This document shows positions 20,109-54,913 of a stretch of DNA of 64,000 bases, piece after piece. Position numbers and translations under genes: made by a program. How positions within the stretch are numbered: the stretch's first letter is position 1; each line of letters begins with the position of its first letter. The notes beneath the pieces are model-generated. The model was not told where the DNA came from and did no database searches. It was given only the letters and a program-made list of their open reading frames with translations. Source of the DNA: Argopecten irradians (taxonomy: Eukaryota; Mollusca; Bivalvia; Pectinida; Pectinidae). The DNA lies in NCBI RefSeq assembly GCF_041381155.1, contig NC_091142.1:32911528-32975527 (forward strand), read 5' to 3'.

Positions 20109-20492
20109 ATTATGAACGTAAACATGTTGGAGAACGGAACTCAGCTAGGTGGGCTGAAAACGAAGACGGTTGCCCTTGATGAGCTTCTCCCTAGACTGGG
20201 TCATCCCGGGAAGTTCCAAGTCATCACATTCCTACTTCTTGCATTAAACTATTTCTTTGTTTGTTTCAACCACGTTTGTATGGCATTTTACGGCTCCACG
20301 CCAAAACACCAATGTGAAGACAGTGCCATTGTGAATGGAAATACCACTGTACTTGGTGTAACTCACGGGAAATGTACAACATCTTACATCCTGGGGAATG
20401 GTCAGAACACAACTATCACGTGTAAGGCTGATCCTAAGGGGATGTGGAGCTATACTCCGTACTCAGACAGGGAAACTACCATCATCATGGAG
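20109..20492 (+). CDS. Gene A coding exon 1: N-terminus, TM1, extracellular loop
   Basis: It opens after the acceptor TTTACAG (AG at 20107-20108) and is followed by the donor GAG|GTATGG; the exon ends in phase 0 after ATCATGGAG. It encodes the cytosolic LLPRLGHPGKFQ segment, TM1 (VITFLLLALNYFFVC) and most of the large loop, with NGNTT and QNTT sequons. ATGs at 20112 and 20124 are both in frame. The last 22 nt of this exon plus the donor seed the intron 1 minisatellite. Confidence 0.93.
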
Positions 20493-23400
20493 GTATGGAA
20501 CAACTATACCGCAGTCACGAGGGGTGGGGAGGGGGAAAATACCATCAAAATTGAGGTATCGAAATAATATGAACCAGTCACGAGGGATGAGGGAGGGGGA
20601 AGCTACCATCATCATGGAGGTATCGAACTACTATTCCGCAGTCACTAGGGTAGGGAGGTGGGAGGGGGAAGCTAACATCATAATGGAGGTATCAAACTAC
20701 TATGTCGCTGTCACGAGGGTAGGGGAGGTAGGGAGGAACTAACATCGTAATGATGGTATCGAACTACTATGTCGCTGTCACAAGGATATGAGAGGTGGGA
20801 TGGGAAGCTAATATCATAATCGTGGTAATAAACTACTATATCGTTGTCACGAGGGAAGTGGAGGTGGGAGGGGAAGCTAACATCATAATGAGTGTATCGA
20901 ACTACTATGTCGCTGTCACGAGGGTAGGGGAGGTGGGAGGGGAAGCTAACATAATAATGAGGGTATCGAACTACTATGTCGCTGTCACTAGGGTAGGGAG
21001 GTGGGAGAGGGAATCTAACATCATAATGGAGGTATCAAACTACTATGTCGATGTCACGAGGGTAGGGGAGGTGGGGAGGAACTAACATCGTAATGATGGT
21101 ATCGAACTACTATGTCGCTGTCACAAGGGTATGAGAGGTGGGAGGGGAAGCTAACATCATAATCGTGGTAATAAACTACTATATCGTTGTCACGAGGGTA
21201 GGGGAGGTGGGAGGGGAAGCTAACATCATAATGATGGTATCGAACTACTATGTCGCTGTCACAAGGGTATGAGAGGTGGGAGGGGAAGCTAACATCATAA
21301 TCGTGGTAATAAACTACTATATCGTTGTCACGAGGGAAGTGGAGGTGGGAGGGGAAGCTAACATCATAATGAGTGTATCGAACTACTATGTCGCTGTCAC
21401 GAGGGTAGGGGAGGTGGGAGGGGAAGCTAACATCATAGTAAGGGTATCGAACTGCTATGTCTCTGTCACGAGGGTAGGGGAGGTGGGAGGGGAAGCTAAC
21501 ATCATAATGAGGGTATCGAACTACTATGTCGCTGTCACGAGGGTAGGGGAGGTGGGAGGGGAAGCTAACATCATAATGAGGGTATCGAACTACTATGTCG
21601 CTGTCACGAGGGTAGGGGAGGTGGGAGGGGAAGCTAACATCATAATCGTGGTATTAAACTACTATATCGTTGTCACAAGGGTAGGAGAGGTGGGAGGGGA
21701 AGCTAACATCATAATGAGTGTATCGAAATGCTATGTCTCTGTCACGAGGGTAGGGGAGGTGGGAGGGGAAGCTAACATCATAATGAGGGTATCGAACTAC
21801 TATGTCGCTGTCACGAGGGTAGGGGAGGTGGGAGGGGAAGCTAACATCATAATGGGGGTATCGAACTACTATGTCGCTGTCACGAGGGTAGGGGAGGTGG
21901 GAGGGGAAGCTAACATCATAATGAGGGTATCGAACTACTATGTCGCTGTCACGAGGTAGGGGTAGGGTAGGAGGTGGGAGGGGAAGCTAACATCATAATC
22001 GTGGTAATAAACTACTATGTCGCTGTCACGAGGGTAGGGGAGGTGGGAGGGGAAGCTAACATCATAATGAGGGTATGACGAACTACTATGTCGCTGTCAC
22101 GAGGGTAGGGGAGGTGGGAGGGGAAGCTAACATCATAATGAGGGTATAAACTACTATGTCGCTGTCACGAGGGTAGGGGAGGTGGGAGGGGAAGCTAACA
22201 TCATAATGATGGTATCGAACTACTATATGTCGCTGTCACGAGGGTAGGGGAGGTGGGAGGGGAAGCTAACATCATAATGATGGTATAAAAGCTAACTATA
22301 TCGCTGTCACGAGGGTAGGAGGAGGTGGGAGGGGAAGCTAACATCGTAATGATGGTATCGAACTACTATGCCGCAGTCACGAGGGTAGGGGAGGTGGGAG
22401 GGATCTAGAGTATAACATCCAGTAATGATGGAACTAACATCTAAGATGGTATCGAACTACTATGCCGCAGTCACGAGGGTAGGGAGGTGGGAGGGGGAAG
22501 CTAACATCATAATGATGGTATCGAACTACTATGCCGCAGTCACAAGGGTAGGGGAGGTGGGAGGGGAAGCTAACATCATAATATGGTATCGAACTACTTT
22601 CCGCAGTCACGAGGGTAGGGGAGGTGGGGGAGGAACTAACATCGTAATCATGGTATCGAACTACTTTGCCGCGCAGTCACGAAGGGTATGTGCTGAGTGG
22701 AGGTGGGAGGGGGACTAAACATCATATAAATAGATGGTAATCGAACTACTATGTCGCTGTCACGAGGGTAGGGGAGGTGGGGAGGGAAGCTAACATCATA
22801 ATGGATGGTATCGAACTACTATGCCGCAGTCACGAGGGTAGGGGAGGTGGGGAGGAACTAACATCATAATGATCTGTATGGTATCGAACTACTATGTCGC
22901 TGTCACGAGGGTAGGGAGGTGGGAGGGGAAGCTAACATCATAATGGGGTATCGAACTACTATGTCGCTGTCACGAGGGTAGGGGAGTGGGAGGGGCTAAC
23001 ATCTAAATCACTAATAGAGGATGAAGCTACATTATAATCGTGGAACTATATCGTTGTCACGAGGTAGGGGAGGGGAGGGAAGCTAACGCATAATCGTGTA
23101 ACACGTTGTCACGAGGGAAGTGGAGGTGGGAGGGAAGCTAACATCATAATAGTGTATCGAAATGCTATTCTCTGTCCAGGGTAGGGGAGGTGGGGAGGAA
23201 TTAACATCGTAATGATGTCCGATACTATGTCGCTGTCACGAGGGTAGGGGAGGGTGGGAGGGAAGCTAACATCATAATGATGGTATCGAAGTACTATGCC
23301 GCAGTCACGAGGGTAGGAGAGGTGGGAGGGGAAGCTAACATCGTAAAGACGGTATTAAACTACTATGCCGCAGTCACAAGGGTAGGGAGGTGGGAGGGGA

Positions 23401-26400
23401 AGCTAACATCATAATGATGGTATCGAACTACAATGTCGCTGTCACGAGGGTAGGGGAGGTGGGGGGAAGCTAACATCGTAATGATGGTATCGAACTACTA
23501 TGCCGCAGTCACGAGGGTAGGGGAGGTGGGGAGGAACTAACATCGTAATCATGGTATCGAACTACTTTGCCGCAGTCACAAGGGTAGGGGAGGTGGGGAG
23601 GAACTAACATCGTAATCATGGTATCGAACTACTATGCCGCAGTCACGAGGGTATTGGAGGTGGGGAGGAACTAACATCATAATGATGGTATGGAACTACT
23701 TTGCCGCAGTCACGAGGTAGGGGTAACATCGGTATCGAACTATCAGGAGTCGTAATCATGGATCGAACTACTATGCCGCAGTCACGAGGGTAGGGGAGGT
23801 GGGGAGGAACTAACATCATAATGATGGTATCGAACTACTATGTCGCAGTCACAAGGGTAGGGGAGGTGGGAGGGGGAAGCTAACATCATAATGATGGTAT
23901 CGAACTACTTTGCCGCAGTCACGAGGGTAGAGGGAGGTGGGAGGAACTAACATCGTAATCATGGTATCGAAACTACTTTGCCGCAGTCACGAGGGTAGGG
24001 GAGGTGGGGAGGAACTAACATCTCGTAATCATGGTATCGAACTACTAATTGCCGCAGTCACAAGTAGGTAGTGGGAGGGGGGGAGGAACTAACATCGTAA
24101 TGATGGTATCGAACTACTAACACGAGGGTATTTAACATCATAATGTGTGTATCGAATACTATGCCGCAGTCACAAGGGAAGGGGAGGTGGGGGGGACTAA
24201 CATCGTAACGATGGTATGAACTACTATCCACAGTCACGAGGGAAGGGGAGATGGGAGAACTAAGATCGTAATGATGGTATTAGAAACTATGTCCATGTCG
24301 ATGTCACGAGGGTAGGGAGGTGGGATGGGGAAGCTACATCATAATTGTGGGTATCGCTAACTACAGTACGCTGTCACGAGGGTAGGTGGAGGTGGGAGGT
24401 GGAAGCTAAACATCAATAATGAATGTATCGAACTACTAATACCGCTGTCACGAGGGTGTGGTGAGGAGTGTAAGCTCGCATTATAATCGTGGGTATTAAA
24501 ACTACTATATCATTTGTCACGAGGTAAGGGAGGTGGGAGGGAGCTAACATCATAATCGATTGATAAACTCGAGAACTATGCCGTTATTGTCACGAGGGAA
24601 TTGAGAGGTGGGAGGGTAAGCTAACATCATAATGATGGTATCGAATGCTAATGTCTCCTGTCACGAAGGTGGTAGGGGAGGTTGGGAGAGAATTAAACAT
24701 CGTAAAGATGGTTCTCGAACTACTATGTCCGCTTGTCACGAGGGTAGGTGAAGGTTGGAGGAAGCTAACATCATAATGATGGTATCTATAGACGGTAATA
24801 CTACTTTGCCGCAGTCACGAGGGTAGGGGAGGTGGGGAGGAACTAACATCGTAATGATGGTATCGAACTACTATGCCGCAGTCACGAGGGTAGGGAGGTG
24901 GGAGGGGGGGGAACTAACATCGTAATGATGGTATCGAACTACTATGCCGCAGTCACAAGGGTAGGGAGGTGGGGAGGGGAAGCTAACATCATAATGATGG
25001 TATCGAACTACTTTGCCGCAGTCACAAGGGTAGGGGAGGTGGGGAGGAACTAACATCGTAATCATGGTATCGAACTACTATGCCGCAGTCACAAGGGTAG
25101 GGGAGGTGGGGAGGAACTAACATCATAATGATGGTATTAACTACTATGCCGCAGTCACGAGGGTAGGGGAGGTGGGGAGGAACTAACATCGTAATGAAAC
25201 TACATGCGCAGTCACGAGGTAGGGTGGAGGACTAACATCATAATGATGTATCGAACTACTATGTCGCTGTCACAAGGGTAGGGGAGGTGGGAGGGGGAAG
25301 CTAACATCATAATGATGGTATCGAACTACTATGCCGCAGTCACGAGGGTAGGGGAGGTGGGAGGAACTAACATCGTAATGATGGTATCGAACTACTATCC
25401 GCAGTCACGAGGGTAGGGGAGGTGGGGAGGAACTAACATCGTAAGATGGTATCGAACTACTTTGCCGCAGTCACGAGGGTAGGGGAGGTGGGAGGAACTA
25501 ACATCGTAATGATGGTATAAACTACTATGTCGCTGTCACAGGGTAGGAGGGGAGGGGAGCTAATCTATGGTATTACATTGTGCTGGAACTAACATAGTAA
25601 TCGAGGTATGAAGTACGACTAAGACTACTATGTCGCTGTCACGAGGGTAGGGGAGGTGGGAGGGGAAGAACTAACATCGTAATGATGGTATCGAACTACT
25701 ATGCCGCAGTCACAAGGGTAGGTGGGGAGGGGTGGGAGGAAGCTAACATCGTAATGATGGTATCGAACTACTATATGCCGCAGTCACGGAGGGTAGGGGA
25801 GGTGGGAGGGAAAGCTAACATCGTAATGATGGTATCGAACTACTATGCCGCAGTCACGAGGGTAGGGGAGGTGGGGAGGAACTAACATCGTAATGATGGT
25901 ATCGAACTAATGCCGCAGTCACAGGGTAGGGGTGGGGAGGGATGATGGTATCGAACTACTGCCGCATCAGGAGGAAGTGAGGAATGATGGTATCGAACTA
26001 CTATGCCGCAGTCACAAGGGTAGGGGAGGTGGGGAGGAACTAACATCGTAATGACGGTATCGAACTACTATGTCGCTGTCACGAGGGTAGGGGAGGTGGG
26101 AGGGAGAAGCTTACATCATAATGATGGTATTGTACTACTATGCCGCAGTCACAAGGCTAGGGGAGGTGGGGAGGAACTAACATCGTAATGACGGTATCGA
26201 ACTACTATGTCGCTGTCACGAGGGTAGGGGAGGTGGGAGGGAGAAGCTTACATCATAATGATGGTATTGTACTACTATGCCGCAGTCACAAGGCTAGGGG
26301 AGGTGGGGAGGAACTAACATCGTAACGATGGTATTGTACTACTATCCCACAGTCACGAGGGTAGGGGAGGTGGGAGGGAAAGCTAACATCATAATGATGG

Positions 26401-29400
26401 TATCGAACTACTATGTCGCTGTCACGAGGGTAGGGGAGGTGGGGAGGAACTAACATCGTAATGATGGTATCGAACTACTTTGCTGCATGTCAGATATTCA
26501 TCGTAGTAAACATGGTAATAGTCATTCCCCACATTGTGTTGACAGGAATTTATTTATACATATAGTATCATAGTTATGTATCCATTTTTTTGGCCCAGAA
26601 TGGCTTTGTGAATAAGCAAATATAATTGTGCAGTAGTAGTACAATAGTATTTAGAAGAAAATACACCATTTCATGTAATGGGCATGTTAACAGTGGGACC
26701 TGGTCTGTGACGATGTCTACATGGGGAAGCTGGCCACCACCATCTACTTCTTGGGAGTGATGACAGGTGGTCTAGTGTTCGGACACATCGCCGACATCTT
26801 CGGACGGAAATGGACTATGCTAGTATGCCTGTACGCTCCGGTTGCCATAGGAATAGGGATATACTTTGTCACAACATTTGCTGGCTTTGCTGCTTTGAGG
26901 TTTTTCCAAGGAGTATTCATTCAGGTAATGTTAAAACTAAGAAAAGTAAATAAAATATTATTGTTTTTCTGAATGATGTAGAGTTGGTTTCGCTACACGT
27001 ATCATGATTATGATAACTACTTTCCTATAGGTGAGTGGTGGGTAATTTTATAATTAATTGTTTAATATTTTATTTTTATTATTATTAGCATGGATATCTT
27101 TTACACTTCCAGTACGCATAATAGTCCAGTAAAAATACGAAAAATAGAGGCCTAATCTCCAAATAATTGCAACAGAATTTGTTTTCTGCTTTTTGAGTTG
27201 GAGGATCTTATTATTTTACCATGAAAAAAGTCGCCAAAATAATATGTTCGGAAAGACGTTTTTTCAACATCCGAAAAATAAGAAAATAAAAAGAAATCAC
27301 ACTTTTGACAACTTTTAAAGTATAATATCTGCTATTTTTGCAAGACTTGAAATATGAAATCGGGTATATCTTAAGACAAACTTTAGGTAAGTACAAATAA
27401 GTTGAAATGATACAATAATTTCAGTCAATCCAAGAAATAAAGAAGGATGAAAACGGTTCAAAAGCTTTGAATTTAGCTTAGCAATACCGGTTTTGTTCTT
27501 TTTAGATGCAAACATTTATAAAATCTTACCATGAACAATATAAGTTAATGTGTTATGTCTTAAAGGAATACTTTTTCTTTGATATTAAAGCATGATCGAT
27601 AATACATTAGCTAGAAAAAAACTAAATATTAACCCGTCAAGTTGACCGATCGTGCCATTTTGTAGTGTTTTTATACTTAGATTTTTGGCAAAACTCCCAT
27701 TTTGGTAGTTAATATTTCGAAAAATAAAAAAGCAAATGCTTCCAAATATGTGATATCCTTTTCTGTATATTTTGTACTTGTTATTTTGATCATTTATTGT
27801 AAAAACGGTATAAATATGCACATCTTATTTAGTAGTAAAAACTTCCTATCACGTTAATTTGGCTGAATATCAAAATACATGTATGTCTAAGTCCATAAAT
27901 TTGCAATGCAAATATCTTAATTTTTCGAATATGCTTTATTCGTTTGTCATATAGTTTTGCCAGTAAATAAATCAGAACTGTGATGATTTTCAGCTATAAA
28001 ATTGAAATTGAACTTTTAATTTATTCCTTTATCTCATTGAAAATTATGTAACCTCCATCCGGTTCCATTATAGAAAAAATTAAAAACTGACCTATTCAAA
28101 TATTTGATCAAAAAGAAACTTCAATTTCACTTTATAAAGAACATTCCATTATGGTGGTAATATCTGCCAAAGGATTTTGCAATCTGATTAGTCACAAAAT
28201 AGATATTCATATTTTTTACATTTAAACTTAAGTACTTAGCCAATTAGAGAAGTTTAGTCGAATTGGAACTAAATGAGGATTTGATCGACCTCACGTCTTT
28301 TATTTTTGTTGATATCTTGATATAGTTGTCCCTTTTAGGTGAGTTTAGACTACATAGAATCTGAATTAATAACTATCTAAACACTTGAGACGGTACTTAC
28401 TGAATAATTCTTGAATAAAAATTACATATTATTCAATTTGGACTTCAAAATATCCTTGGAAAAGGTCAAAAGACCAACTTTGAGCAACCATGTTATCTCA
28501 GCCTTTAATCAACAAGTTTTATCTAAAAAGATTCCACCAAAATGAGAATCAGTGGTATTGTTGATAATAACAATTTTTTACCTTAGCAATCCAACAAAAG
28601 CATATTTGGCTGTTACAAGGACATAATTATGCAATTTTCATGCTGTCATACTTTTTCCCTGTGTTGATTTCAACTTAGATTTTTGGCAATCTGTGCTGTC
28701 CTTATAACGTTCTTATCATACAGTAATTTTTTAGTATCTCATGATAACCATGTAAGTTTATATTTGGCAAATATCCCTATTTTTCTGATTTTTTGGGGGT
28801 CAAGAAAAACACTTTCCCAAATTTTTATTTGTGGCGACTTTTTTTTCTTGTATAAAACAAAGTCAGATCTGCATAAAAAACAAAGAAAACATTCTGTTGC
28901 AATTATTTTGGGGTAGCACCCTATCTTTACTTGACTATAATAAAGCGAAGATGGAATGAACATTTCAAACAAATGTATACAGCTTGGTGCTTACTTTTGA
29001 TTGTAATCGAAATATTCTTTGAGTATACATTGATCATACTATATAGTTAGATTTTTTACGACTAGCACGACTACAAAGTATTTTTTCGATATATTATGAA
29101 GCATAAGGCATTTTACATTTTTAGGTAAAGTCAAAACATTGTGTAACATCTCCTTTACCAGGGTCTGCAGACATCTACGGTTGCCTTGGTGATGGAGATA
29201 GCAGTCCGGGAGTACCGTGGCCTGGCCATAGCAGTGTTTGAGTGTTACTGGGGCGCTGGGGTATTGATCCTGGGCGGATTGGCTTACTTCATTCAAACCT
29301 GGCGATACATTCAACTGGCAATAACACTCCCTCCCATCCTACTGGTGTTCTATATATGGTAAACTTAACGTAAACAGAAATATATAACAAACAACAAACA

Positions 29401-32400
29401 CAAAATGAGAAGAAACTTTTTTTGGCACATTGGTTTTGTTATGTTCATTCTATTATTATATGGTATTGAACAGTATCCTTAATTCATAATTAAATCTTCA
29501 TGTATAAAATCTAACAAGGGTACAACACCAATGAAACATACTGTCTTAACTGGTGATATGTAGTATCACTCTGAAAAAATGACCCATATGACATGTTGTA
29601 AATGAATAGTGCTTTACTGCACTTTATATGTATATATATTAGTTCCCTAAGGATTTCGAATACATTGGTTTGGGTGGAATTACATGAATCAGGACTCTCA
29701 CGAAATATGTAACAAACGCTAATATTCACATTTACCAGCTGGGTCCCAGAATCACTTAGATGGCTGGTGATGAAAGGACGATTCGACGAGGCTGAACATG
29801 TGGTGAAGAGAATCGCAAAGTTCAACAAATTACCTTACCCGGCAGATATAATGGCTGCTATCAGGAAGGAAGGAGTACCTTTCCAGGATAAGACAAGAAA
29901 ACAGTACACCGCCCTGGACCTGATGAAGACCTCGGTCACCAGAAATAGGACATTCCTGCTGCTGTTCCTTTGGTAAGAACCTCAGTGGTTCTGACTGATG
30001 TCAAATTAACAGCAATTTGAGACAATGTTGTCGTTATTATGAAATTAAAAAAATAGTGAAAAAAGTGTATTAATATTGGCGTACCAGAAATTCGGTTATT
30101 TGTTCATTCCATTGGATCGATATTACAATGGAGTTGTATATATAGATCTAAACTATGAACACAATACAGTACGCTGTCATAACTGGCATTATTCTACATT
30201 ATATTTAGGCTGATGAAATAATTCCTGTCTTATACTCCTTCATGTTCTCAATGGTGTATGTATGGAGTGATTTGTTTATTTATATGTTTAAGAATCTCAT
30301 GAAAGTCATCTTTTCGCTTCCCTTTCATCGTCATCATGCTCTTGACTGAAATTAAGGCATCGTATAGACTATGATTAAAATTGTTTCCAGTCTTGCATGA
30401 ATAACTTAGGTAATAGGTATTAGCTGATAATTATAATCTTTAGATGACAAATGTGTATCTCTCATACTATATAATTTAGTATTTTTTTAAAATTTACTTG
30501 GGTTTTGATTATTTCCTTACTTACTTTAAATGTAGGTTTACCACGTCTATCGGGTACTACGGCCTCACATTACAGATAACAAGTTTGGCCGGCGATAAAT
30601 ATCTCAACTTCTTCATTGGTTCCATGGTAGAGATGGTCAGTTACATCTGTGTTATTTACATCATCAAACCGTAAGTGAACCCATTTACTAATGCCGACGA
30701 TGCAAGTTAATAGTTATATAGTCATACAGTTACTTATTCCCATATAAAGCAATGGACGGTACGATTTATAGGGGTTAGTAACTGAATTTTCAATGACTTC
30801 CTTGTTTTTCCATTCAATAAAGGCATTTTATAAATATTTATTTATTATACACGTGTAATATAACATATCTGCATTTCGATTGGTTGATTCCGATGAATAG
30901 TACATATTTCTACGCATGGGAAACGACTCTTTGTTTTACTACGAAAATCTGGCGCATTTGTACTTGACGTACTTGACCGAATTATGTTTTTGGAACGGTC
31001 AAAATCTCAACTGATCGATTGATTGATCATTTGGCAGAAAGCTCCAAACAGGCAGAAACAAAGGCAAATAGAATCTGTCATTCGTTCCCCTTCACATTAG
31101 ATTTATGATTCTCGTTTCGGATGTCTCATTTTGTGCTCACCAAAGGCTCGCAAGAAATGAAAAATTCTAAACTCATTCTATAGTTCTCTATAGCGCATAG
31201 TTCCTTGATTCGTATGTAGCGCAATTCCTCAACCTTGTGGGTTCTCGCGCGACCAGATGACACAGGTCAACGTTAATGAGATCCACTCTTCCCTGGAAAG
31301 CACTGCAGCGAACTTCGAAGTTTTACGGAGAGCTTTCAATATTCTGACCTTTTCCACTCCCTTGAAGGCGCTAGTTGTCGAATTTTTGCTGAATTCTTCA
31401 TTTACAAATCTACATATATTGAATTATTTGGCCCTACTATTTATGTGTTGGCGTTCAGCGATCATTTTGATACCTCATTTGTTCCATTCGGTTGATAAAT
31501 GTCAATGTTATATCTAATGAAATTCGAGATGGCGGACAACTTCATGTTCATGACCAGAAGTTCATCCCAATTTCTGCAATGTTCACATTTAATTTGTGAT
31601 CATGGTGTCATAAGGGTTCAGAAAAATAATGGTTTGGGTTTGTTTGTTTGTTTTTTGGGGTTTTTTGGGGTTTTTTTTTTGGGGGGGAGGGGGGAAGATG
31701 TTTGGTGGGGAGTGGCATGTACATAAACATAATTTCGAATATTTCTCATCACATTTGCTATATTATTAAGAGCTGCTGATTACGTTTAGATTTGGGCGAC
31801 GGAAGCCATTAGCCTTCTACTTCCTATTAGGCGGATGTTGCTGTATTCTAGCTGGCATCATACCATTCTTTGGATCAGGTACGTTTCTTTCTGTCCATCT
31901 TTCTTGCTATCTATTACTTATTGAGTCATTTAGATTCATCCAATAATCCTTATAACTCAATTTACTACAAATGTCTTTTCAAAATTACAAAGTAAATGCG
32001 GGACTCTCTTTTTTCTTTGAAGTCACTACGTCGTTGTATTATTAGTCAATCAGAATGGACGTGATATGTTTCCTGTAAGAGCCGATAAAGTTTTTTGAAG
32101 TCCATGAAATACTCGATAAAAGGAAGATTAAATTATATGTTTATTAATAAAACATTCAAAATTCATCATTTTGTAAAAAGTAGATTTTACTGAAAGGTTA
32201 GCAGTTTCCCAAGTATTTGTCTAAATATGTTTAAATTACTTTTAAAGGCCAACTTTACTCTGTTTTTGTTGTAATCCAGGTGATGATATTGCCAAAGCCT
32301 CCACCAGTTTTGCCATTATTGGTCGGTTCGGTATGGCCGGAGTGTTCAGTGTTATATTATTGTACACCTCAGAGCTTTACCCGACAGTCATTAGGTAAGC

Positions 32401-35664: not shown

Positions 35665-35666
35665 TT

Positions 35667-42651: not shown

Positions 42652-43145
42652 ATAGCTATCATTGATTCATAATTGCTCAAAATCAAACACACCAGCATAT
42701 TATTTTTATTCCATTTTTAACTTTGGTATGAATTCCTTTTTCCAAAAATCTATATTAAAAAAAATAGTCATCAGAAAAAACGACTTTTCACCAGAGCAGA
42801 TCCTTAAGTGAAAAATACAAATATTATATCAACGTCATGAAAATATATCTTTATACATATGAAACGGGTACACATTACATTTACAGCTTTAAAAGTATAT
42901 TTCGACAATAAAGCATTAGAGTCAAAGAACAGATAAATGCATAAAACTGTAGTTTACGCAGCTTCACATCTCTGTTCACACAACACCCTTGTGAGAGCTC
43001 CCCCTTGTCATATATCGCTAGATGGATGTCTGACTTACTGACTATGTGTGACGCCGGTAACAATATTCCCAACAATAATGTGCAATCTATTTCTACGATT
43101 AGGCAAAGTTTATCTTCGCAAATGTTTACATGAACATCTGTATAT
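42652..43145. other. Intergenic stretch, nothing recognised
   Basis: AT-rich spacer between two MITE-type elements, with no open frame of interest. Confidence 0.3.
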
Positions 43146-43573: not shown

Positions 43574-45600
43574 GTAAATATCTGACTTATAAATAGTGAT
43601 AACATTTTTAAATCCGCATAAAAATAATCTTAAAATTATAGATGTGAACTGAATAAAAGTTATCTTTATTAACAGAACACAATATTTTTTTTTAGATTAT
43701 TTAGTATTTATTTCTTTTGTTCACCAGATTTGTAATAGAAGCAAAAAACGCAAAAATTGGGTTTGTCAAATCTTATTTACTGTAAAATGTCTGGAGCGAA
43801 AACCACAAGATTAACATCAGCGCTGAGATATACGCGTACGTTTGACGTGCAATTTGATAGGTGTACTCAATTGAAAATGTGTTACTCTGTAAAAGTACAG
43901 CTTCATTTAAAGGAAAACTGGTTTCTTTAAAGGTATGAATAAGATCTAATGAAGCTGTTTCAAGAGAGGTTCATGACATAATTCCTCCCCTGGTGCATTA
44001 AGGCCGTCCATTGCCGTACCTGTCTCAGTACAATACACAGAGAGACTGTCGTGGTGTGGTGACGGTGGTGGGAACTGAACCAGAACACCGGTGACCTTCT
44101 AGGTAGGCTCTTCACTGCATTCTATCATAATACTGCATGTAAACAAGCTATCAATAAACCTATTCAACTGCACCGCATTCAGGATTGTTTGAAAACAATC
44201 ATAGAATTTCTTTTTGCATTCGATTTGAACGTGAACCTCAGGACTGGAGGATAAGTCAATAGTCAATTCCAATGCATTAACCGAGGACGATCGCAAGTTC
44301 TCTCTCTATATATATACATTTAAATCAGGGAAACTATTTGGTCTTCTCCACTACCTGGTCACGACTGCATGGCCTAAGACAGGTGAGACAGGTAAGGGGG
44401 CATATTATTGATATACCTGTTGTCGCTTCTTATCGTGTATGTTTATAATGACAGTATGGCAATTACCTTGATACGTTGTCTTTAGCCTATAGTGAGAGTG
44501 GCTTTCTCTAGTGATATAAAAGTAAGTTTTTGTCACTTATATTGTACACCTCTGTAAACAAGGACTTCATTTTATCATTTTAATGTTGCTGCTGTTGACT
44601 GAAATTTCCAATTATTGCACTTTCTTAATTCTATTGCTGAACACGGAAATTTGCAAAGACAAGAAATTTTACATTTTATTAGTGATATGGCTGCTTACGA
44701 TAATCTGGCGATACTTTATCGCTTTTTACCACGGTTTTGACTGAGAGTATTTACTCTGTAAGACACGGGTCTCATGTATTGTAAGACAGTGTTTGTACAG
44801 TGAGCTATGTGTAAATACAGTAATGAGGTTTAGAGTGAAGTACAAGATGTCAGAATCAACAGTAGACAGTTTAGGGAGTACACCAAGTGTGTATTATCAT
44901 ACGACTAATTGTGCCTTAGTGAATATTGGTACATCTTGATGACTCATTACAAAGGAAAGAAACTCACTATCCCAGATTTTCTATCTGATAACTAAAGCTA
45001 TGTACCCTAAAAAACATAGCATCATCGGTATTTCTTAAATATAAGATATTTGTTTTTATAATTATAAATGTGCTTAGCCTGAAGTTTTTCTAATTTCAGT
45101 ATAATGTCTTGCAGATAATGACATGACATTTTTTGTATATTGGACAGTCTTCGGATTATGGTCTTGAAATGATTAATTTCACCAAGTTATGCAGTTTTGT
45201 AAACGAAATGAACAACCAAACATTTTAAGTTGACTATTCTGAACCAGGGCATGTAAACAGGTCCTGTCAACAGGCGTATTTATAAGATTGCTATCTTTTG
45301 TACTATTCTAAAAATGAACTTTAGTTTACCTTCACACCTCTAGATCTGCTCTCTCGATATTAGCGGTGATAGGCTGTATCACTGTTTCTGTATGAGCCTG
45401 AAAATGTATGTTGTGTAGATTTCAAAACAAGTTGGCGTCGGAGCAGAACGACTTTTATTCAACTGCATCTTAAAGAAAGAGCTTGATATAGTCTATGTAT
45501 TATATCGTATTTAGATTTCATGAGAGCAGTCTTGATCTAAGCCATTAAGGGTTGTTTATAGTGTATTAGGCTATTACAGACTCGCAACTTTAGAAGATAG
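43574..45600. other. Upstream region of gene B, no coding sequence recognised
   Basis: AT-rich sequence 5' of gene B. A donor-like ACAG|GTAAGG occurs near 44392 and could belong to a further upstream untranslated exon. I see no homology to the upstream region of gene A, so the two paralogues probably have different promoters. Confidence 0.3.
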
Positions 45601-45602
45601 AT

Positions 45603-45632
45603 GGATATTCAAAGGCAGCGAGGTCGATAACG
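45603..45632 (+). other. Candidate 5' non-coding exon end of gene B
   Basis: The donor-like AACG|GTGAGG at 45632/45633 would give an 83 bp intron to the acceptor ATTCGCAG at 45715 that opens the first coding exon. The exon's 5' boundary is not determined. The call is inferred from the need for an untranslated exon upstream of that acceptor. Confidence 0.25.
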
Positions 45633-45715
45633 GTGAGGATTTCTTTCTTGGTGCATGTTATTTTTTATTTTTGCGTTTCAATCACTTGTGCAATCATATT
45701 TTTAACAATTCGCAG

Positions 45716-46099
45716 ATTCCAAGCGTAAACATGGCGGATACGAAAACTGAATTAGGTGAAATAAAAACGAAGACGGTCGCCCTTGACAAGCTTTTGCCTA
45801 GACTGGGTCATCCAGGGAAGTTCCAAGTCATCACATTCCTACTTCTTGCATTTAACTATTTCTCTGTTTGTTTCAATCATTTGTGTATGGCCTTTTATGG
45901 TTCCACGCCCAAACACCAATGTGAAGACATCGCCATTGTAAATGGAAATACCACTGTCCTTGGAGTAACGCATGGGAAATGTACGACATCTTACATCCTG
46001 GCGGATGGTCAAAACACAACCATCACCTGTAAGGCTGATCCTAACGGGATGTGGAGCTATACTCCGTACTCAGACCGGGAAACTACCATCATCATGGAG
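45716..46099 (+). CDS. Gene B coding exon 1: N-terminus, TM1, extracellular loop
   Basis: Acceptor ATTCGCAG (AG at 45714-45715), start ATG at 45731, donor GAG|GTATGA, phase 0. It encodes MADTKTELGEIKTKTVALDK, TM1 and the loop with NGNTT and QNTT sequons. The exon 1 end TACCATCATCATGGAG is identical to that of gene A, but no repeat follows it here. Confidence 0.93.
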
Positions 46100-49000
46100 G
46101 TATGACACAAATATTTCACCTTTGTATGACAGATGAAGCATAAAGAGTTTGTGTGGTGTGTTAGGTAGTAAATGAGATACGTTAGAGTGCAGGCATTGGT
46201 TCTCGAAGTGATTAAGCCGGATTCATTTTCATGATAGTGATTCTTTTTACTATAACTCTAATGTAAATTAAGCGATAAGCATTCCACTTCCATATTAGAA
46301 AAGGTAAATGTTACATAATTGTCCATATGCTTCAAGTTTGCTTTCCAAACATGCTTTTTTCCTTCTCCATATCTTTTGCGCCAGGACTTTGATGCAACTT
46401 TACTATGTATTGTTGACCATGGGTGATTTAATTGTGTTTGAAATGACACCACATAATTTTACTATCCTCTGATATATAGAGGTCTACAAACAATGAACAA
46501 CACACGAACCCGTTTAACCTTTGTTAACAGTGGGACCTGGTCTGTGACGATGTCTACCTGGGGAAGCTGGCCACCACCATCTACTTCTTGGGAGTGATGA
46601 CAGGTGGTCTAGTGTTCGGACACATCGCCGACTTCTTCGGACGGAAGTGGACTATGCTGGTATGCCTGTACGCTCCGGTTGCCATAGGAATAGGAATATA
46701 CTTTGTCACATCATTCGCTGGCTTTGCTGCTTTGAGGTTTTTCCAGGGGATGTTCATTCAGGTAAGTAGTTTTTGTTTTTCCTAACTTACATTAAGCTTG
46801 CAAGCAAAAGACATCCCTTTTATGTATTTAAGGAGATTCATTAGTAGATTTATATATCGTCTACTCAATTTTACGCATATCAATAATCGCGCTTTGGTTT
46901 CTGAATGACGTAATATGCACAGACAGCGATGACACACCTATCCGGCTATGTTTGGATTGTGTGGTTGCGGTTTATTCCTTCTGATATAAAAATGCTGATG
47001 ATAAACGATCTACTAACCAGTATTTACCCCACAAATACAGTGGTTATGTTTGGAGATCTATTTTGTGATACCATTTTAGTGGGGTGATTTTCATTCCTAA
47101 ACTATATACAAGACGTTATCAGCAACTTTATCATTTGCAGAAATATTATCGTCAGGCACGATTTGGGTCACTTAACTGTTAAGTGGACGATTAGATCGAT
47201 CATAACAATTTTATGGAAACTACAATTTACAGTGTTTCTTATATTTAATTATATAGTTTTGTTATATGTAAAATTCATTAAACTGATTCAAAATTCATAT
47301 TATTTGATATCACATTATACCGACAGAATAAAGAAATGCGGACTTCTTAGAGTATATCACCTACCTAACTGTCTTTACTCGTAGTCTTCATTTGGATATT
47401 ACAGAATTATCTACATGTGCGGGTAGGTATTGATTATGACGTCATGCGAGCGTAACAAAATAATGACGTCACAATCACAATGGATACCTACCCGCAAGGG
47501 CGCTAAATCTATAATATGCAAGGACGAAATAAATGTACCTAAAGAAAATGATACTTGTTTAGCCGAAACACTATTCTCGCAGTCCCCAGACTCTCGCCGC
47601 TGAACGAGAGTCTGGTCCAGTTCGTTTGAATTGAAACGGTAAACAAACATGGATGGCAGACGGAAATTACAATACATGTACATCTTATTTGTGCATAACG
47701 GTATCTTGAAGAAAGCTGATTTGTAATGTTTTTAACTGAAAATCTATTTTTCGTTATGTAAGTGTGGCTAACGACGTTTTTTTCAAATTTTGTATCCGTC
47801 ATGTTTGTAGTGGATCTATCAACCAAAACTTCATCGATTTTTCGGTTAGCCTCAATTTGAAATAACAAAACGGAAATACGAACCACACCAGACTCTCGTT
47901 CAGGGCGGCGAGAGTCTGGGGGAATACGAGGTTACGGAAACATCTGATTAAAACCTTTCGGTATTCAATACTATATCTTCATTCGATTTAATGGATATTA
48001 CATGTTACAAACACCTTTGTGAAAATATCAGGTATATACTACACTAGGTCAGACAATAAACTTTTAATCACACTCATCTGTTAATTCCTCTAACACATAA
48101 TGGTTTACATAGTCGAGACGATTGTATATTTCTGAGGACATGACCTCGTTTGTGTATTTTAAGAAATGCGTTTATGTGAATATCGTGTTAAACTATGTCA
48201 GGTTTTTTTCTATGACGTCAGGGCTTTACCTTGATATGCATTCACTGAAAACAGATTTCTGCACATTATTCATTCTTTCCATTCTGTTTATATGATACTT
48301 TACGTAAGTCGTTTCATGGCTTTAGACATTTAAATTCTCTTTCACACTGGTCTTTGTAAGGCTGGAAATACAAGGAAGACGGTCACACTGATCTCCAAAG
48401 TTTGACAATAAAACATCCACCATCGAGAGTTTGTGTTTGTACACCAATGCCGGAACTACTCTATTTTTTATATGGAGTTGGTGATTCAGACATGCATGTT
48501 TTAGAGATAGATTGCACTCATTCATAAAGGAGTTTATATAAACCGTTTTCAAGATATACGATGATAACGAAACTGCATGTGAAAATTATAAAAAGTGATA
48601 TTTAACATGCCAATTACTCACTTATTTAAGTTAATTGAACATAACGAAATGGATAAAAAGTGTGAATGCATCAGACCTAAAATTAGTCCACGGAGTTCGT
48701 AACATATTTTATCACCATATAGCCATGTATTATCAGTGTCTATAGCAGGTACAAGGATCGCTTGTTTGCCCGGATTCGACTTTGTAAATACCTATACATC
48801 GAGTCCTTTGTAGCATTGTCATGCAAATGGTAGTTGTAAAGTATACACAAATTATCACTAGATTACACTGGGGATTATACCTTTAAGTTTCCCTTGACTT
48901 CATCATTATACGTTATTAGTTCACTTCATCATTTGTTCCCTCAGGGTCTGCAGACATCTACGGTTGCCTTGGTGATGGAGATATCAGTCCGGGAGTACCG

Positions 49001-52000
49001 TGGCCTGGCCATAGCAGTGTTTGAGTGTTACTGGGGCGCTGGGGTATTGACCATGGGCGGATTGGCTTACTTCATCCAAACATGGCGATACATTCAACTG
49101 GCCATCACACTCCCTCCCATCCTACTGGTGTTCTATATATGGTAAACTCAACGTAAATAGAAATAATTCAATTTTACTTCTAACGACTATGTAACGTCGC
49201 CTTCCATTTTGAATTACAACCATCTGCTCAACACTCAACACTCTATTGCCCATATTTTATGTATGGTAAACTCAACGTGAACACAGAAAAAACCGAACTC
49301 GCCATCACAATCCCTCTCACCCTACTGGTGATCTATTTCGTATTTGCATATCACAGATTTATCTGCCTTTGCGGTAGGTATTAATTGTGACGTCATGTGT
49401 GTGCGAGCGCAACCTCATACTTTTCTCATAAAACAATGACGTTACAATGGTAACCTACCCGTAAGAGAGACAACTCTATGTATATGTGAGCGTAACTTTT
49501 TGTTTTTCAGAGCTAATAAAGGTGGTTTTGCTCACAAAATAATGACATAGAATTGGGTACCTAACCGCAAGAGAGATAACTTTGTGTATAAGACGGAATA
49601 AATAGTAAACTCAACATAAATACAAATAAATACCCAACTGGCACGTTTTATTATTTGCTTATTAAAGAGTTATCTGCCCTTGTTGTTCGGTATTAATTGT
49701 GTCGTCATGTATTTGCGTATTAATGTTCTAAGTGTAAATGTATATCCAACATCCAGTACACATCTTAAAGAGTTTTCTGCCCTTGTTGTTAGGTATTAAT
49801 TGTGACGTCATGTATTTGCGTATTAATGTTGTAAGTGTAAATGTATATCCAACATCCAGTACACATCTTAAAGAGTTATCTGCCCTTGTTGGTAGGTATT
49901 AATTGTGCCGTCATATATTTGCGTATTAATGTTGTAAGTGTAAATGTATATCAAACATCCAATACACATCTTAAAGAAACCGAAGCATGTAGTCGTTCTA
50001 AGATACGTAGTCGATGAATAGTACATATTTATGAACATGTTTAAAATTGAGATAAATACTGATCAGAAATGCTTATTCATTTAATTATTTCCTCCTAGTT
50101 TTAATTAAATTGATTTAAAATAGTGACGAAATTGTATTTAAACTTGCATCAAAATCCTACAAAGCTACTTTTCATATCACAAGCTTGGTGCCAGAGTCCC
50201 CTAGATGGCTTGTGATGAAAGGACGATTCGACGAGGCTGAACATGTAGTGAAGAGAATTGCAAAGTTCAACAAATTACCTTACCCGGCAGATATAATGGC
50301 TGCCATCAGGAAGGAAGGAGTACCTTTCCAGGATAAGACAAGAAAACAGTACACCGCCCTGGACCTCATGAAGACTTCAGTTACCAGAAATAGGACATTC
50401 CTGTTTTTCTTTCTTTGGTAAGGCGGGTTTCCCCCTTTAAATATACAGTATGTAATGTATCTCATTTCACGAAACAGTCATATAAAGGAATTGGCGGTTC
50501 TCACTGTGCCTCATTTTTATTGGGATCAGAACTTCAAGCCAAACTTGACCTCAATTCGTATGTCGTCGTAAAGTAGTTCATATTATATCCCAGTCGAAAC
50601 GTCTTTGATAATCAGGTAATGGCTAAGTATCAATGATGGAATATGCTATCGAGAAGTTATTATAAATGTGTCTTTATTTTGTATCACAGGTTTACCACGT
50701 CTATCGGGAAGTCATTATAAATGTGTCTTTATTTTGAACCACAGGTTTAACACGTCAATCGAGAAGTTATTATGAATGTGTCTTTATTTAGTATCACAGG
50801 TTTACCACGTCTATCGGGAAGTAATTATAAATGTGTCTTTATTTTTTACCACAGGTTTACCATGTCTATCGGGAAGTTAATATGAATTTGTCTTTATTTT
50901 GTACCACAGGTTTTCCACGTCTATCGGGTAGTAATTATAAATGTGTCTTTATTTTGTACCACAGGTTTACCACGACTATCGGGTAGTTATTATAAATGTG
51001 TCTTTATTTTGTAACACATGTTTGCCACGTCTATCTGGAAGTTAATATTGAATTTGTCTTTATTTTGTACCACAGGTTTACCACGTCTATCGAGAAGTTA
51101 TTATGAATGTGTCTTTATTTTGTACCACAGGTTTAACTTATCGGGAAGTCATTATGAATGTGTCTTTATTTTGTACCACAGGTTTACCACGTCTATCGGG
51201 AAGTTATTATGAATGTGTCTTTATTTTGTACCACAGGTTTACCACGTCTATCGAGAAGTTATTATGAATGTGTCTTTATTTTGTACCACAGGTTTACCAC
51301 GTCAATCGAGAAGTTATTATGAATGTGTCTTTATTTTGTACCACAGGTTTACCACGTCAATCGAGAAGTTATTATGAATGTGTCTTTATTTTGCAGGTTT
51401 ACCACGTCTATCGGGAAGTTATTATGAATGTGTCTTTATTTTGTACCACAGGTTTACCACGTCTATCGAGAAGTTATTATGAATGTGTCTTTATTTTGTA
51501 CCACAGGTTTACCACGTCTATCGGGTAGTTATTATGAATGTGTCTTTATTTAGTATCACAGGTTTAACACAGGTTTACCACGTCAATCGAGAAGTTATTA
51601 TGAATGTGTCTTTATTTAGTATCACAGGTTTACCACGTCAATCGAGAAGTTATTATGAATGTGTCTTTATTTTGTACCACAGGTTTACCACGTCAATCGA
51701 GAAGTTATTATGAATGTGTCTTTATTTTGTACCACAGGTTTACCACGTCAATCGAGAAGTTATTATGAATGTGTCTTTATTTTGTACCACAGGTTTACCA
51801 CGTCTATCGAGAAGTTATTATGAATGTGTCTTTATTTTGTACCACAGGTTTACCACGTCTATCGGGTAGTTATTATGAATGTGTCTTTATTTTGTACCAC
51901 AGGTTTACCACGACTATCGGGAAGTTATTATGAATGTGTCTTTATTTTGTACCACAGGTTTACCACGTCTATCGGGTAGTTATTATAAATGTGTCTTTAT

Positions 52001-54913
52001 TTTGTACCACAGGTTTACCACGACTATCGGGAAGTTATTATGAATGTGTCTTTATTTTGTACCACAGGTTTACCACGACTATCGGGTAGTGATTATGAAT
52101 GTGTCTTTATTTTGTACCACAGGTTTACCACGTCTATCGGATAGTAATTATGAATGTGTCTTTATTTTGTACCACAGGTTTACCACGACTATCGGGTAGT
52201 GATTATGAATGTGTCTTTATTTTGTACCACAGGTTTACCACGTCTATCGGGTAGTAATTATGAATGTGTCTTTATTTTGTACCCAAGGTTTACCACGTCA
52301 ATTGGGTACTACGGCCTCACATTCCAAATAACAAGTTTGGCCGGCGATAAATACCTCAATTTCTTCATAGGTGCCATGGTGGAGATGGTCGCCTATATAG
52401 GCGTTATATACATCATCAAAAAGTAAGTAGACCTGCTCGTAAAAGCTGACACTGGGGGCTTAAATTTCCATGTTTCTAATGTAAAAAAAAAGGTTTTTGT
52501 GGTTAATAGAGTTGACTGTGTACACCTTACCAGTGACATATGTATCCTAATGGTATAGCGAACGCCTCGGATGCATTTCAAGAATTGTAAATCCATGTAT
52601 GTTTTCAATACAATGACAATTCTTAATTATAATATTATCTTATTAATTTAAATGAAAGTAGGAGAACAAATGCTTTGCCATATTTTGAGAATGAATTGTT
52701 ATATAATCGTATACATTCACATTGTTTTCGTATGTAATTGATATTATTTATATGGGGGCAAATTCAAACAATTTGGACAAAATTTCGTCGAATTTCCGAG
52801 ACAGATTGGCAAAGAAGTAATTCCAACATTGTGGACAAAATATTGTTTTGAATGTTTGAGACAGATGGGCAAAGACGTTATTTCAACATTGTGGACAAAA
52901 TTATATCGAATTCTCGATGCATTTGGACAAAGAAGTAATTGCAACATTGTGGACAAAATGATGTCGAATTTTCAAAGCAGATTGGCAAAGAAATAGTGAA
53001 GCAGCTTATTTTCAGCTCGACCACTACATAAACTACATGATTATTAAGTGCTTTTTACGTTTAGATTCGGACGACGGAAGCCGTTAGCCTTCTATTTCCT
53101 ACTTGGTGGGAGCTGCTGTATTCTGGCTGGCATCATCCCGTTATTTGGATCAGGTACGCTACAACTATAACATATCAGAGTTAGGATATCAACTAACGGA
53201 TTCTTTGCTACATATTATCATTCCATCTCTATATATTACACGGTTGCTTTCCGGACGGGTAAGTATCAACTCTGACATTATTATTTTTTGAGGCTACCCA
53301 CAAGAGTAGATAACTGTTATGTCTAAATACGGAATATACTGAGAACGATTTCCGTAAAAAATGACCATTTTTACATTTATAAGCTAATTAATTACTATAA
53401 CATATTTTTTGTTGTTTTCACCATGGTTACGTTTATGAATTCAGGTGGTGATATTGCCAAAGTGTCCACCAGTTTCGCCACCATTGGTCGGTTTGGTATG
53501 GGCGGGGTCTTCAGTGTTATTGTACTTTACACGTCTGAGCTTTACCCGACTGTCATTAGGTAAGCATTGCATAGATAACGTTGTAAGGATTTCATTGAGT
53601 TCCAAAATGAATTTTAAATTTTAAAGAGTTTATCGTTTGTAAATTTCCCTATTTATTTAGAGTTCACACACTCCATCACATAAAAATATATTCAAACGAA
53701 TTCTTATAATTAAGTTTACTAGTATTTTTTCACCAATTTTTACTATCTGTTACATATTTCAATAAATGTTATTGAATGTTTGCAGGAGTATTGGAATGGG
53801 TTGCTGTTTTTTCCTGACCAGGGTAGGAGGCTTACTTGCCCCACAGATCTTACTCCTGGTAAGCGTACCTTACTGGTTGATATAGACTAAATATTAAACC
53901 TAAAGTAATTAGTATTACAGCCTTAATTTATTTAAAAATCAAATGTAATTCTGATTTGCTCTTTAATCTTTATAAATTCAATTTCAAATAGTTTTAGCTA
54001 CATAAGAGATAACCGTATCTTTTGAGATCGCGTTATTAATAAAAAATACATTTCTTTTCATTTAAAATATTATTTGATTTCTGATATTTAAAAAAAGAAA
54101 CTATTTGTTTCATGATGGAACATATCTTGTTATAACGCTTTTGTACTGTAAGTGAAACAGAAAGAACAAAAAATCAATAATTCTATAGAATATGTTAGTT
54201 TACACAATTTCACCCCTAATTGGTGTTCTATTAAGGTATCTATGGTAAAAAGACAAAATAGATACAAAGCAGGAATAAAGTCGTAATTAATATTTAACAC
54301 TCCAACTTGTAAAACATCGGAGTGTGGCCAGATTTTGAAACCTCACCTTTTGCTTATTAGATTAGATTGTGACCGGATATAAGAACTAAACCTAGAAGAA
54401 ATGATAATAGATGACTCTAAGATTCTTGTATTCCTTATCACTTTTCTAAATATCACAGTTACTTTAAGTGTTGTAAACTAATACTTGATGTACACATACG
54501 GCTCTTGGATTCGTATGAACCCCGAAATTTACATTTTGTTTTTTGTAGTGGTAATGTCTTGTATATTTTGTGGTCACGTTTTTATACGCTATGGTTGAAT
54601 TGAGGTAGTGAAATACATATCTATTACACAATGCATAACACACTATTCTCTATGAATGAAGGGAGACTACACACATTCGTCAGTTCCGGTGATAGCGTTC
54701 GGTGTGTTGGCTATGATTGGTGGATTCTGTACACTGATACTTCCGGAAACGCTCGGACGCAAACTTCCGGATACCATCGAAGAAGCAGAGAATATGCGTG
54801 GCAAAAAGTTATTGCCTGACCCCGACGATGCAGAAAATATCAAACATGAAAAAGAACCCAAGGAAAAGTACAAAGCTGTTAATGAAGGCTTTAGCGAGGA
54901 TACACATATGTAA
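45731..54913 (+). CDS. SLC22-family organic cation/anion transporter, gene B (9 coding exons)
   Basis: Tandem paralogue of the upstream SLC22 gene and likewise a predicted 12-TM plasma-membrane organic-ion carrier; substrate unknown. Exons: 45731-46099, 46531-46761, 48945-49141, 50184-50417, 52288-52422, 53065-53153, 53445-53559, 53786-53858, 54662-54913. The joined frame is open: 1695 nt, 564 aa. All introns are GT-AG, and exons 2-9 have lengths identical to those of gene A (231, 197, 234, 135, 89, 115, 73, 252). It has EWDLVC, GHIADFFGRK, PESPRW, FGRRKP, SELYPTVIRS and LPETLGRKLPDTIEEAE. Most differences from gene A lie in the first 15 residues and the C-terminal tail. The start ATG is in AAACATGG. 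Introns 3, 4 and 5 each contain local tandem repeats, and intron 2 contains inverted-repeat elements. It may be read as SLC22 organic cation transporter-like. Confidence 0.93.
46531..46761 (+). CDS. Gene B coding exon 2: TM2-TM4 start
   Basis: Acceptor TTAACAG, donor TTCAG|GTAAGT, 231 nt. It encodes WDLVCDDVYLGKL, GHIADFFGRK and TM3. Only a few residues differ from gene A. Confidence 0.93.
47405..47510. repeat. Inverted-repeat element in gene B intron 2
   Basis: GTGCGGGTAGGTATTGATTA at the left is mirrored by GGATACCTACCCGC at the right, with a TGACGTCA inside each arm. Related, less regular copies occur in intron 3 (near 49365-49475 and 49500-49575), so it is a repeat family within this gene. 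Probably a small non-autonomous DNA element. Confidence 0.55.
47576..47930. mobile_element. 355 bp MITE with palindromic termini, gene B intron 2
   Basis: The left terminus holds CCCCAGACTCTCGCCG and GAACGAGAGTCTGG, the right terminus CCAGACTCTCGTTC and CGGCGAGAGTCTGGGG. The ends are inverted repeats of each other, and each end is itself a small hairpin (GACTCTCG with CGAGAGTC). The interior is AT-rich, and the overlapping antisense frames are not genes. Confidence 0.7.
48945..49141 (+). CDS. Gene B coding exon 3: TM4-TM6
   Basis: Acceptor TTCCCTCAG, donor ATATG|GTAAAC, 197 nt. It encodes TSTVALVMEISVREYRG, TM5 and TM6. Degenerate copies of its 3' end and donor lie downstream in intron 3. 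Confidence 0.93.
49255..49655 (+). repeat. Degenerate duplicates of the exon 3/donor region inside intron 3
   Basis: ATGTATGGTAAACTCAACGT at about 49259 repeats the true donor region ATATATGGTAAACTCAACGT. At about 49294-49336, CGCCATCACAATCCCTCTCA followed by CCCTACTGGTGATCTAT repeats the exon 3 end that encodes ITLPPILLVFY. A further AGTAAACTCAACATAAATAC followed by CCAACTGGCACG occurs near 49610-49650. These are pieces of exon plus donor copied downstream, now decayed, and are not predicted to be spliced as coding exons. Confidence 0.65.
49660..49980 (+). repeat. Three tandem units of about 110-120 bp in gene B intron 3
   Basis: Units share AAAGAGTTATCTGCCCTTGT, GGTATTAATTGTGACGTCAT, GTATTTGCGTATTAATGTTG and AACATCCAGTACACATCTTA. 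Three consecutive copies differ at a few bases each. The AGGTATTAATTGTGACGTCA part matches the inverted-repeat element in intron 2, so the tandem probably grew from an inserted element. Confidence 0.75.
50184..50417 (+). CDS. Gene B coding exon 4: PESPRW motif and large cytosolic loop
   Basis: Acceptor ATCACAAG, donor CTTTG|GTAAGG, 234 nt. It encodes LVPESPRWLVMKGRFDEAE and the TM6-TM7 loop, ending RTFLFFFL. The Trp found just before VPES in gene A is Leu here, while the canonical PESPRW is kept. The acceptor AAG is weaker than that of gene A. Confidence 0.9.
50647..52287 (+). repeat. Minisatellite in gene B intron 4, 55 bp unit, about 30 copies of the intron 4/exon 5 acceptor junction
   Basis: The unit reads GTTTACCACGTCTATCGGGA, AGTTATTATGAATGTGTCTT, TATTTTGTACCACAG. 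The last part (TCTTTATTTTGTACCACAG) is a good pyrimidine tract plus AG acceptor. The first part, GTTTACCACGTCTATCGGGTA, equals the first 21 nt of exon 5 as found in gene A. The array runs directly into the real exon 5 at 52288. Variants include TCAATCGAGAAG and CGACTATCGGGTAG. Frames starting MCLYFVPQVYH inside the array are translations of the repeat. The corresponding gene A intron has a single copy. Confidence 0.95.
52288..52422 (+). CDS. Gene B coding exon 5: TM7-TM8
   Basis: Acceptor ACCCAAG at the end of the 55 bp array, donor AAAAA|GTAAGT, 135 nt. It encodes FTTSIGYYGLTFQITSLAGD and TM8 (FFIGAMVEMVAYIGVIYII). Its own acceptor (TACCCAAG) is weaker than the TACCACAG in most upstream repeat units. 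Confidence 0.92.
52765..52992. repeat. Short tandem repeat of about 60 bp, almost four copies, gene B intron 5
   Basis: Units share ATTGGCAAAGAAGTAATTCC, AACATTGTGGACAAAAT and a variable GTCGAATTTTCGAGACAG part. The copies are moderately diverged. The 70-codon antisense frame over it is a repeat artefact. Confidence 0.75.
53065..53153 (+). CDS. Gene B coding exon 6: FGRRKP and TM9
   Basis: Acceptor ACGTTTAG, donor GATCAG|GTACG, 89 nt. It encodes FGRRKPLAFYFLLGGSCCIL and AGIIPLFGS. Confidence 0.92.
53445..53559 (+). CDS. Gene B coding exon 7: TM10 and SELYPT motif
   Basis: Acceptor GAATTCAG, donor CATTAG|GTAAGC, 115 nt. It encodes GDIAKVSTSFATIGRFG, TM10 and SELYPTVI. Confidence 0.92.
53786..53858 (+). 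CDS. Gene B coding exon 8: TM11
   Basis: Acceptor TTTGCAG, donor CTCCTG|GTAAGC, 73 nt, phase 0 end. It encodes the same peptide as gene A exon 8, SIGMGCCFFLTRVGGLLAPQ then ILLL. Confidence 0.92.
54662..54913 (+). CDS. Gene B coding exon 9: TM12 and cytosolic tail, stop
   Basis: Acceptor ATGAAG, 252 nt to TAA. It encodes GDYTHSSVPVIAFGVLAMIG, LPETLGRKLPDTIEEAE and a tail ending GFSEDTHM. The middle of the tail is clearly more diverged from gene A than the rest of the protein. Confidence 0.92.
   Translation, partial: GDYTHSSVPVIAFGVLAMIGGFCTLILPETLGRKLPDTIEEAENMRGKKLLPDPDDAENIKHEKEPKEKYKAVNEGFSEDTHM

Follow-up and report, generated by a model that had tools for sequence, protein, structure and literature searches.

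Tandem SLC22-like genes and a lectin exon

The window, i.e., the whole stretch of 64,000 nucleotides of Argopecten irradians DNA analyzed here, contains two SLC22-like genes on the forward strand, gene A upstream of gene B, and the last coding exon of a C-type lectin on the reverse strand. The coding features are as follows (in the scallop splice-site motifs, here and below, a slash marks the splice junction).

20124..20492, + strand: gene A (SLC22-like) exon 1, coding part, ending in the donor GAG/GTATGG
26694-26924, 29162-29358, 29739-29972, 30536-30670, 31790-31878, 32280-32394, 32902-32974, 33343-33594, + strand: gene A exons 2-9
45731-46099, 46531-46761, 48945-49141, 50184-50417, 52288-52422, + strand: gene B (SLC22-like) exons 1-5
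53065-53153, 53445-53559, 53786-53858, 54662-54913, + strand: gene B exons 6-9, the whole gene being 45731..54913
56684..56916, - strand: last coding exon of the C-type lectin, with its stop codon at 56684-56686

Spliced gene A encodes 564 aa free of stops. Spliced gene B is identical at 564/564 residues to the NCBI A. irradians protein P0001, "solute carrier family 22 member 13-like," and solved SLC22 transporters match its protein. No separate NCBI protein for gene A was present among the best 120 of 647 matches. The two proteins are identical at 509 of 564 residues, with 87.8% identity between the exon 1 translations, and the nine exon lengths and the intron phases are common to both genes; no new intron position was found between these paralogs, the only two compared. 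Genes A and B have diverged under constraint (NG86 dN 0.053 and dS 0.31; YN00 dS 0.26; dN/dS ~0.17), and the residues at the two junctions that carry arrays fall in a gapless alignment across nine molluscan proteins.

The introns of gene A (20493-33342) and gene B (46100-54661) were almost unalignable despite a coding dS of ~0.3. With array DNA left out of the comparison, three of the eight A-B intron pairs (introns 3, 5, and 8) scored above 20 shuffles, intron 5 only barely. A similar contrast between introns and coding sequence is described for tandem amylase genes (PMC3096672).

The lectin exon corresponds to the end of the NCBI A. irradians protein P0121 (367 aa; Lectin_C E 3.3e-11), which holds the entire 76-aa exon peptide preceded by ...GAT. 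At this point, P0121 reads GAT-KPELIW versus FIA-KPELIW in the in-frame upstream genome. This fits a splice at AG/CT with the Thr codon presumably split as A plus CT between this exon and an upstream exon outside the window. No solved structure matched the lectin exon.

Arrays across the exon-intron junctions

Tandem arrays were found at three junctions of these genes, and a decayed duplication was found at a fourth.

20470..~26492, + strand: array A, 88 units of ~69 bp, the last truncated
20470..20536, + strand: authentic junction unit of array A, at its exon-side edge
20537..20596, + strand: second unit of array A, with a donor whose use would lengthen the coding sequence in frame by 63 nt (21 aa)
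49096..49336, + strand: decayed duplication of the gene B exon 3 end and donor, in intron 3 (exon end 49141)
50646..52309, + strand: array B, 30 units of 55 bp
50756, 51303, 51358, 51584, 51639, 51694, 51749, + strand: array B units with a CAATC start
52288-52422, + strand: gene B exon 5, with its first ~20 nt forming the array edge on the exon side
56909..63106, - strand: lectin array, 23-bp units broken up by other repeated blocks

An earlier note on this DNA had placed three unrelated units (69, 55, and 23 bp) at real splice sites, and this was borne out, the gene B and lectin junctions being fixed by NCBI proteins. The same note had each array start exactly at a splice site; instead, the arrays straddle the junctions, reaching from 8 to ~23 nt into the exon.

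Each unit of array A comprises 23 nt of the end of exon 1, the donor, and the start of the intron. The array thus begins 23 nt inside exon 1, which ends at 20492 (GAG/GTATGG); TRF alone gave a start at 20584, and wraparound alignment extended it to 20470. The GT at the donor position was kept in 84 of the 88 units. The G at position +5 was kept in only two, the authentic unit and one other, and its loss in the other 86 could reflect either selection against decoys or a founder change. Out of 23 exon-tail columns, 14 were matched in the second unit and 22 in the third, with a mean of 16.2 after the twelfth. GTAT or GTAA sites examined in gene A numbered 130, including the authentic one. A readable frame followed at two only, the authentic donor and the second copy, and 128 of the 129 decoys downstream of the authentic donor broke the frame or gave a stop. 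Column conservation was 0.88 for exon-derived and 0.90 for intron-derived positions. At the edges, the values were 0.80, 0.70, and 0.87 for the first three units and 0.86, 0.97, and 0.67 (truncated) for the last three, compared with 0.898 in the interior. Since the far edge of the array is a truncated unit, it is uninformative on microhomology at the breakpoint. By TRF, no array was found in intron 1 of gene B.

The unit of array B consists of ~34 nt of the intron end with the acceptor and ~21 nt of the exon 5 start. The authentic acceptor, AAG/GTTTACC (exon start 52288), sits in the last unit, and the similarity continues ~20 nt into exon 5, this exonic stretch lying past the 30 units counted. 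The acceptors read CAG/G in 28 of the 30 units, CAT/G in one, and AAG/G in the authentic one. All 29 decoy AG/GTTT acceptors led to a stop after 7 to 27 codons. Exon-derived columns were conserved at 0.93 and intron-derived columns at 0.97; edge units scored 0.93-0.96 versus 0.957 for the interior. No array was detected by TRF in intron 4 of gene A, where exon 5 starts as in gene B. Because arrays are lacking from gene B intron 1 and gene A intron 4, arrays A and B each occur in one paralog only.

The heptamer TATCGGG, as in exon 5 of gene A, was found in 16 of the 30 array B units, and the exon of gene B itself reads CAATTGGG. A CAATC start was present in seven of the 30 units, resembling exon 5 of gene B (CAATT, 52299), and paralog A has CTATC. 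Judged from these variants, exchange between array B and exon 5 is possible. The hexamer CTATCG is also found at the upstream boundary of array B, and the corresponding exon 5 start is CAATTG in gene B or CTATCG in gene A. This pattern is no more than suggestive of microhomology at the founding breakpoint.

The terminal unit of the lectin array is CATTGTATTTTATAG/CTAAACCT, and the authentic acceptor is ATAG/CTAAACC. The array reaches 8 nt into the exon, which starts at 56916, and the 23-bp unit contains TAG. The overlap of this array with the lectin acceptor was as the earlier note had it, and the junction position moves by one nucleotide from the 56917 given there. Within the array, a block of ~925 bp occurs twice (57182-58107 and 58452-59376; spacing ~1270 bp), with 920 of 926 aligned columns identical. 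A stretch near 58108-58320, after the ~925 bp block, looked by eye like a tRNA-derived SINE; a tRNA scan found no tRNA.

A fourth, decayed case at the gene B exon 3 donor had also been proposed, and it stood up to shuffling. The tail of exon 3 recurs at 49296-49336 with a local score of 57, compared with a maximum of 27 in 300 shuffles. String matches, which were not scored, placed a copy of the exon 3 donor at 49266 and another fragment at 49604. When the 32 coding junctions of genes A and B were scanned against their own introns, five exceeded the maximum of 60 shuffles, and three of these five were the copies in array A, array B, and the decayed case. The donor and acceptor of gene A intron 3 (score 27 versus 24 and 26) were rejected as a junction copy, the signal being one 16-nt match between the ends of the intron.

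Motifs and folding were compared among the units. Array A contained 36 G-quadruplex motifs (+ strand), arrays B and lectin contained none, and such motifs were absent from three other stretches counted. Folding of one A unit, one B unit, and a dimer of the lectin unit was not significantly better than that of shuffles (z of -0.8, +1.5, and +1.5, respectively). Given the unrelated units and the restriction of G-quadruplex motifs to array A, no shared sequence cause is seen.

Other repeats were observed in the window. A very large 65-bp array, rich in G and T on the + strand, occupies 2265-11903 with ~150 copies at 90% matches. TRF also reported a 103-bp triplicate in intron 3 of gene B (49662-49977). 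The stretch around TAGGTATTAATTGTGACGTCATG in the triplicate was seen by eye at ~47415-47500 and 49345-49420 as well, in introns 2 and 3, and the stretches containing it look like pieces of a dispersed repeat.

Chance of junction overlap

The frequency of junction overlap was evaluated for 11 events, comprising 10 arrays obtained by manual merging of 52 TRF rows and the decayed case, which has no TRF row. Left aside were the TRF rows of mono-, tri-, and tetranucleotide repeats, those lying within larger arrays, and a 166-bp double copy in the lectin array. The period of the decayed case was set at 103 bp in the main run and at 73 bp in a variant, its founding length being assumed. When units were placed anywhere in the window with 32 coding junctions, 0.28 overlaps were expected, and the probability of three or more was 0.002. 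Inclusion of the lectin and a supposed UTR intron gave a probability of 0.00014 for four or more. These window-wide values count against an origin by chance alone.

When units were instead placed in the pre-expansion introns of genes A and B, 1.0 overlap was expected and P(3 or more) was 0.057; conditioning on each host intron gave an expectation of 1.44 and P(3 or more) of 0.144. When the decayed case was omitted, P(2 or more) in the intron null was 0.159, and it was 0.149 for the four strict TRF arrays; setting the period of the decayed case to 73 bp gave P(3 or more) of 0.048. Since the exon upstream of the lectin array is not within the window, that array did not enter these intron-conditional nulls. 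The two host introns had estimated pre-expansion lengths of 249 and 261 bp, and in introns this short, a unit of 55 to 69 bp would touch a junction 14 to 18% of the time. The argument that random placement would rarely hit junctions so often thus hinges on the choice of null (P 0.002 window-wide, P 0.05 to 0.16 within introns). Since P shifts from 0.002 to 0.16 with the choice of null, enrichment as proof of a special process is unproven, and since every P was calculated after the fact on a locus picked as striking, it is suggestive at most.

Origin of the arrays and known counterparts

The earlier note knew of no named process for such arrays. In amphioxus, however, tandem repeats spanning exon-intron boundaries have been named "mirages" (PMC3087553; PMC3902484). 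They are described there in Adh3, the globin genes BflGb6 and BflGb9, TnC, and PGBD5 (PMC3087553, PMC3902484). They occur at donors and acceptors and carry AG/GT signals in many copies, and splicing is reportedly normal (PMC3087553, PMC3902484). Mirages are reportedly also marked by edge repeats that escape homogenization and by lengths that are unstable between alleles or in soma. The scallop arrays resemble mirages in that the unit spans an exon-intron boundary in arrays A, B, and lectin, in that both boundary types are represented (donors in array A and the decayed gene B exon 3 case, acceptors in array B and lectin), and in that most, though not all, copies keep the signals (GT in 84/88 units of A, CAG/G or AAG/G in 29/30 units of B). 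They differ in that the host is a bivalve, not a cephalochordate, and in that they are known here from one genomic sequence alone. Unit numbers also differ: 88 and 30 in the scallop, compared with the 6 and 3 given for two BflGb6 haplotypes.

Human IFI6 is similar, containing a minisatellite of splice donors in which two downstream units reportedly serve as donors (PMC4526556). The repeat units carry a splice donor in both IFI6, as described, and scallop array A, whereas use of the copies is not indicated by the scallop sequence. A 2009 survey of human segmental duplications described minisatellites at exon-intron boundaries, with 27 intron modifications in recent paralogs (PMC2812944); the boundary repeats are reported there to form novel introns, whereas in the scallop existing introns have been lengthened. 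Intron gain by tandem genomic duplication, as described (PMC4974935), likewise involves duplication within a gene, but in scallop genes A and B no new intron position is seen. Among other invertebrates, a 27-bp intronic minisatellite of abalone TSSK1-like is not described as lying at a junction (PMC6905558), clam hemoglobin genes are reported to contain MITE-like intron repeats (PMC4732748), and the intron 1 minisatellites of earthworm metallothionein are described with no mention of a junction in the portions consulted (PMC12783039). No molluscan junction-spanning minisatellite was found in the literature searched, of which the coverage was partial. The set of junction-spanning minisatellites is thus confirmed and belongs to a known, named kind that is, as far as our searches go, new for a mollusc.

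We consider that the arrays are probably scallop mirages, i.e., junction-spanning minisatellites born by ordinary duplication, with no targeting of splice junctions needed. A short tandem duplication would by chance have straddled the border between an exon and the adjacent intron, and the doubled segment would then have been amplified through slippage or unequal exchange. Duplication over a junction would keep a single intact junction next to the exon and send the extra copies into the intron. The protein would be unchanged provided that splicing takes the exon-edge copy; this layout is seen in the sequence, and the splicing is inferred. The extra DNA would be tolerated since splicing would keep the outermost copy.

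The authentic junction was the outermost, exon-side unit in all three arrays, so that the other copies fall within the intron, as must follow when a junction is duplicated in tandem in a gene that remains functional. Also in favor of this origin are the intact 564-aa frames of both genes with their low dN, the exon 5 sequence predating array B, the close match of the third array A unit to the exon tail, and the intron-conditional P of 0.05 to 0.16. The NCBI protein models of gene B and the lectin use exactly these exon-edge junctions. With exon- and intron-derived columns about equally conserved, the copies show no coding constraint. One feature of array B is less easily accommodated: as the CAG form is present in 28 of 30 acceptors and the authentic one is AAG, exclusive use of the last acceptor is less obvious. 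The weaker-looking authentic acceptor among CAG decoys is, on its motif, a point against simple tolerance.

Birth by ordinary duplication has to be weighed against a process in which tandem duplication begins preferentially at exon-intron junctions, for example through transcription-linked structures or repeats inside the splice-site sequence. Such a bias would account for four junction overlaps among 11 events (window-wide P[4 or more] 0.00014) and for the like arrays described in several amphioxus genes (PMC3087553, PMC3902484). We nevertheless regard it as unlikely, because the intron-conditional P was 0.05 to 0.16 given the short pre-expansion introns and because no common motif or structure was found among the three units, the G-quadruplex motifs being confined to A. 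The broader proposition that scallop genomes have a mutational bias seeding tandem duplications at junctions, such that introns lengthen outward from the splice sites that bound them, appears slightly more doubtful still.

It has also been suggested that the copies are used as extra splice sites, giving alternative isoforms or regulating output, as is reported for human IFI6. Retention of GT in 84 of 88 A units and of CAG/G in 28 of 30 B units would agree with such a role, as would the second A donor with its in-frame addition of 21 aa. Use is not indicated by the sequence, however: all 29 B decoys run into stops, 128 of the 129 A decoys break the frame or give a stop, the +5 G remains in just two of 88 A donors, and the NCBI model of gene B takes the authentic site. 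Use of the copies would therefore mostly destroy the product, and we judge this explanation to be quite improbable. The reverse order of events, in which an intronic minisatellite expanded up to the edge of the exon and gave rise to the splice site now in place, seems the most improbable. The lectin exon leaves room for it, sharing only 8 nt with an array whose 23-bp unit has TAG, so that direction is unreadable there. In gene B, the exon-derived portion of the unit is found in the paralog that lacks the array as well; as gene A starts exon 5 in the same way and is array-free in intron 4, the exon sequence of B is older than the array. The gapless protein alignment of the A/B junction residues among nine molluscan proteins may likewise count against this order.

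With the scallop arrays read as mirages, a little-known repeat class, described from amphioxus in the literature consulted, now includes a mollusc; arrays A and B comprise 88 and 30 units, and the tandem paralogs A and B serve as mutual controls. Should junction bias be real after all, several unrelated cases within ~40 kb would give an early glimpse of it beyond the chordates. Were such arrays to prove common in bivalves, they would provide a test of how introns lengthen and of how the true splice site is chosen when dozens of nearly identical decoys are present.
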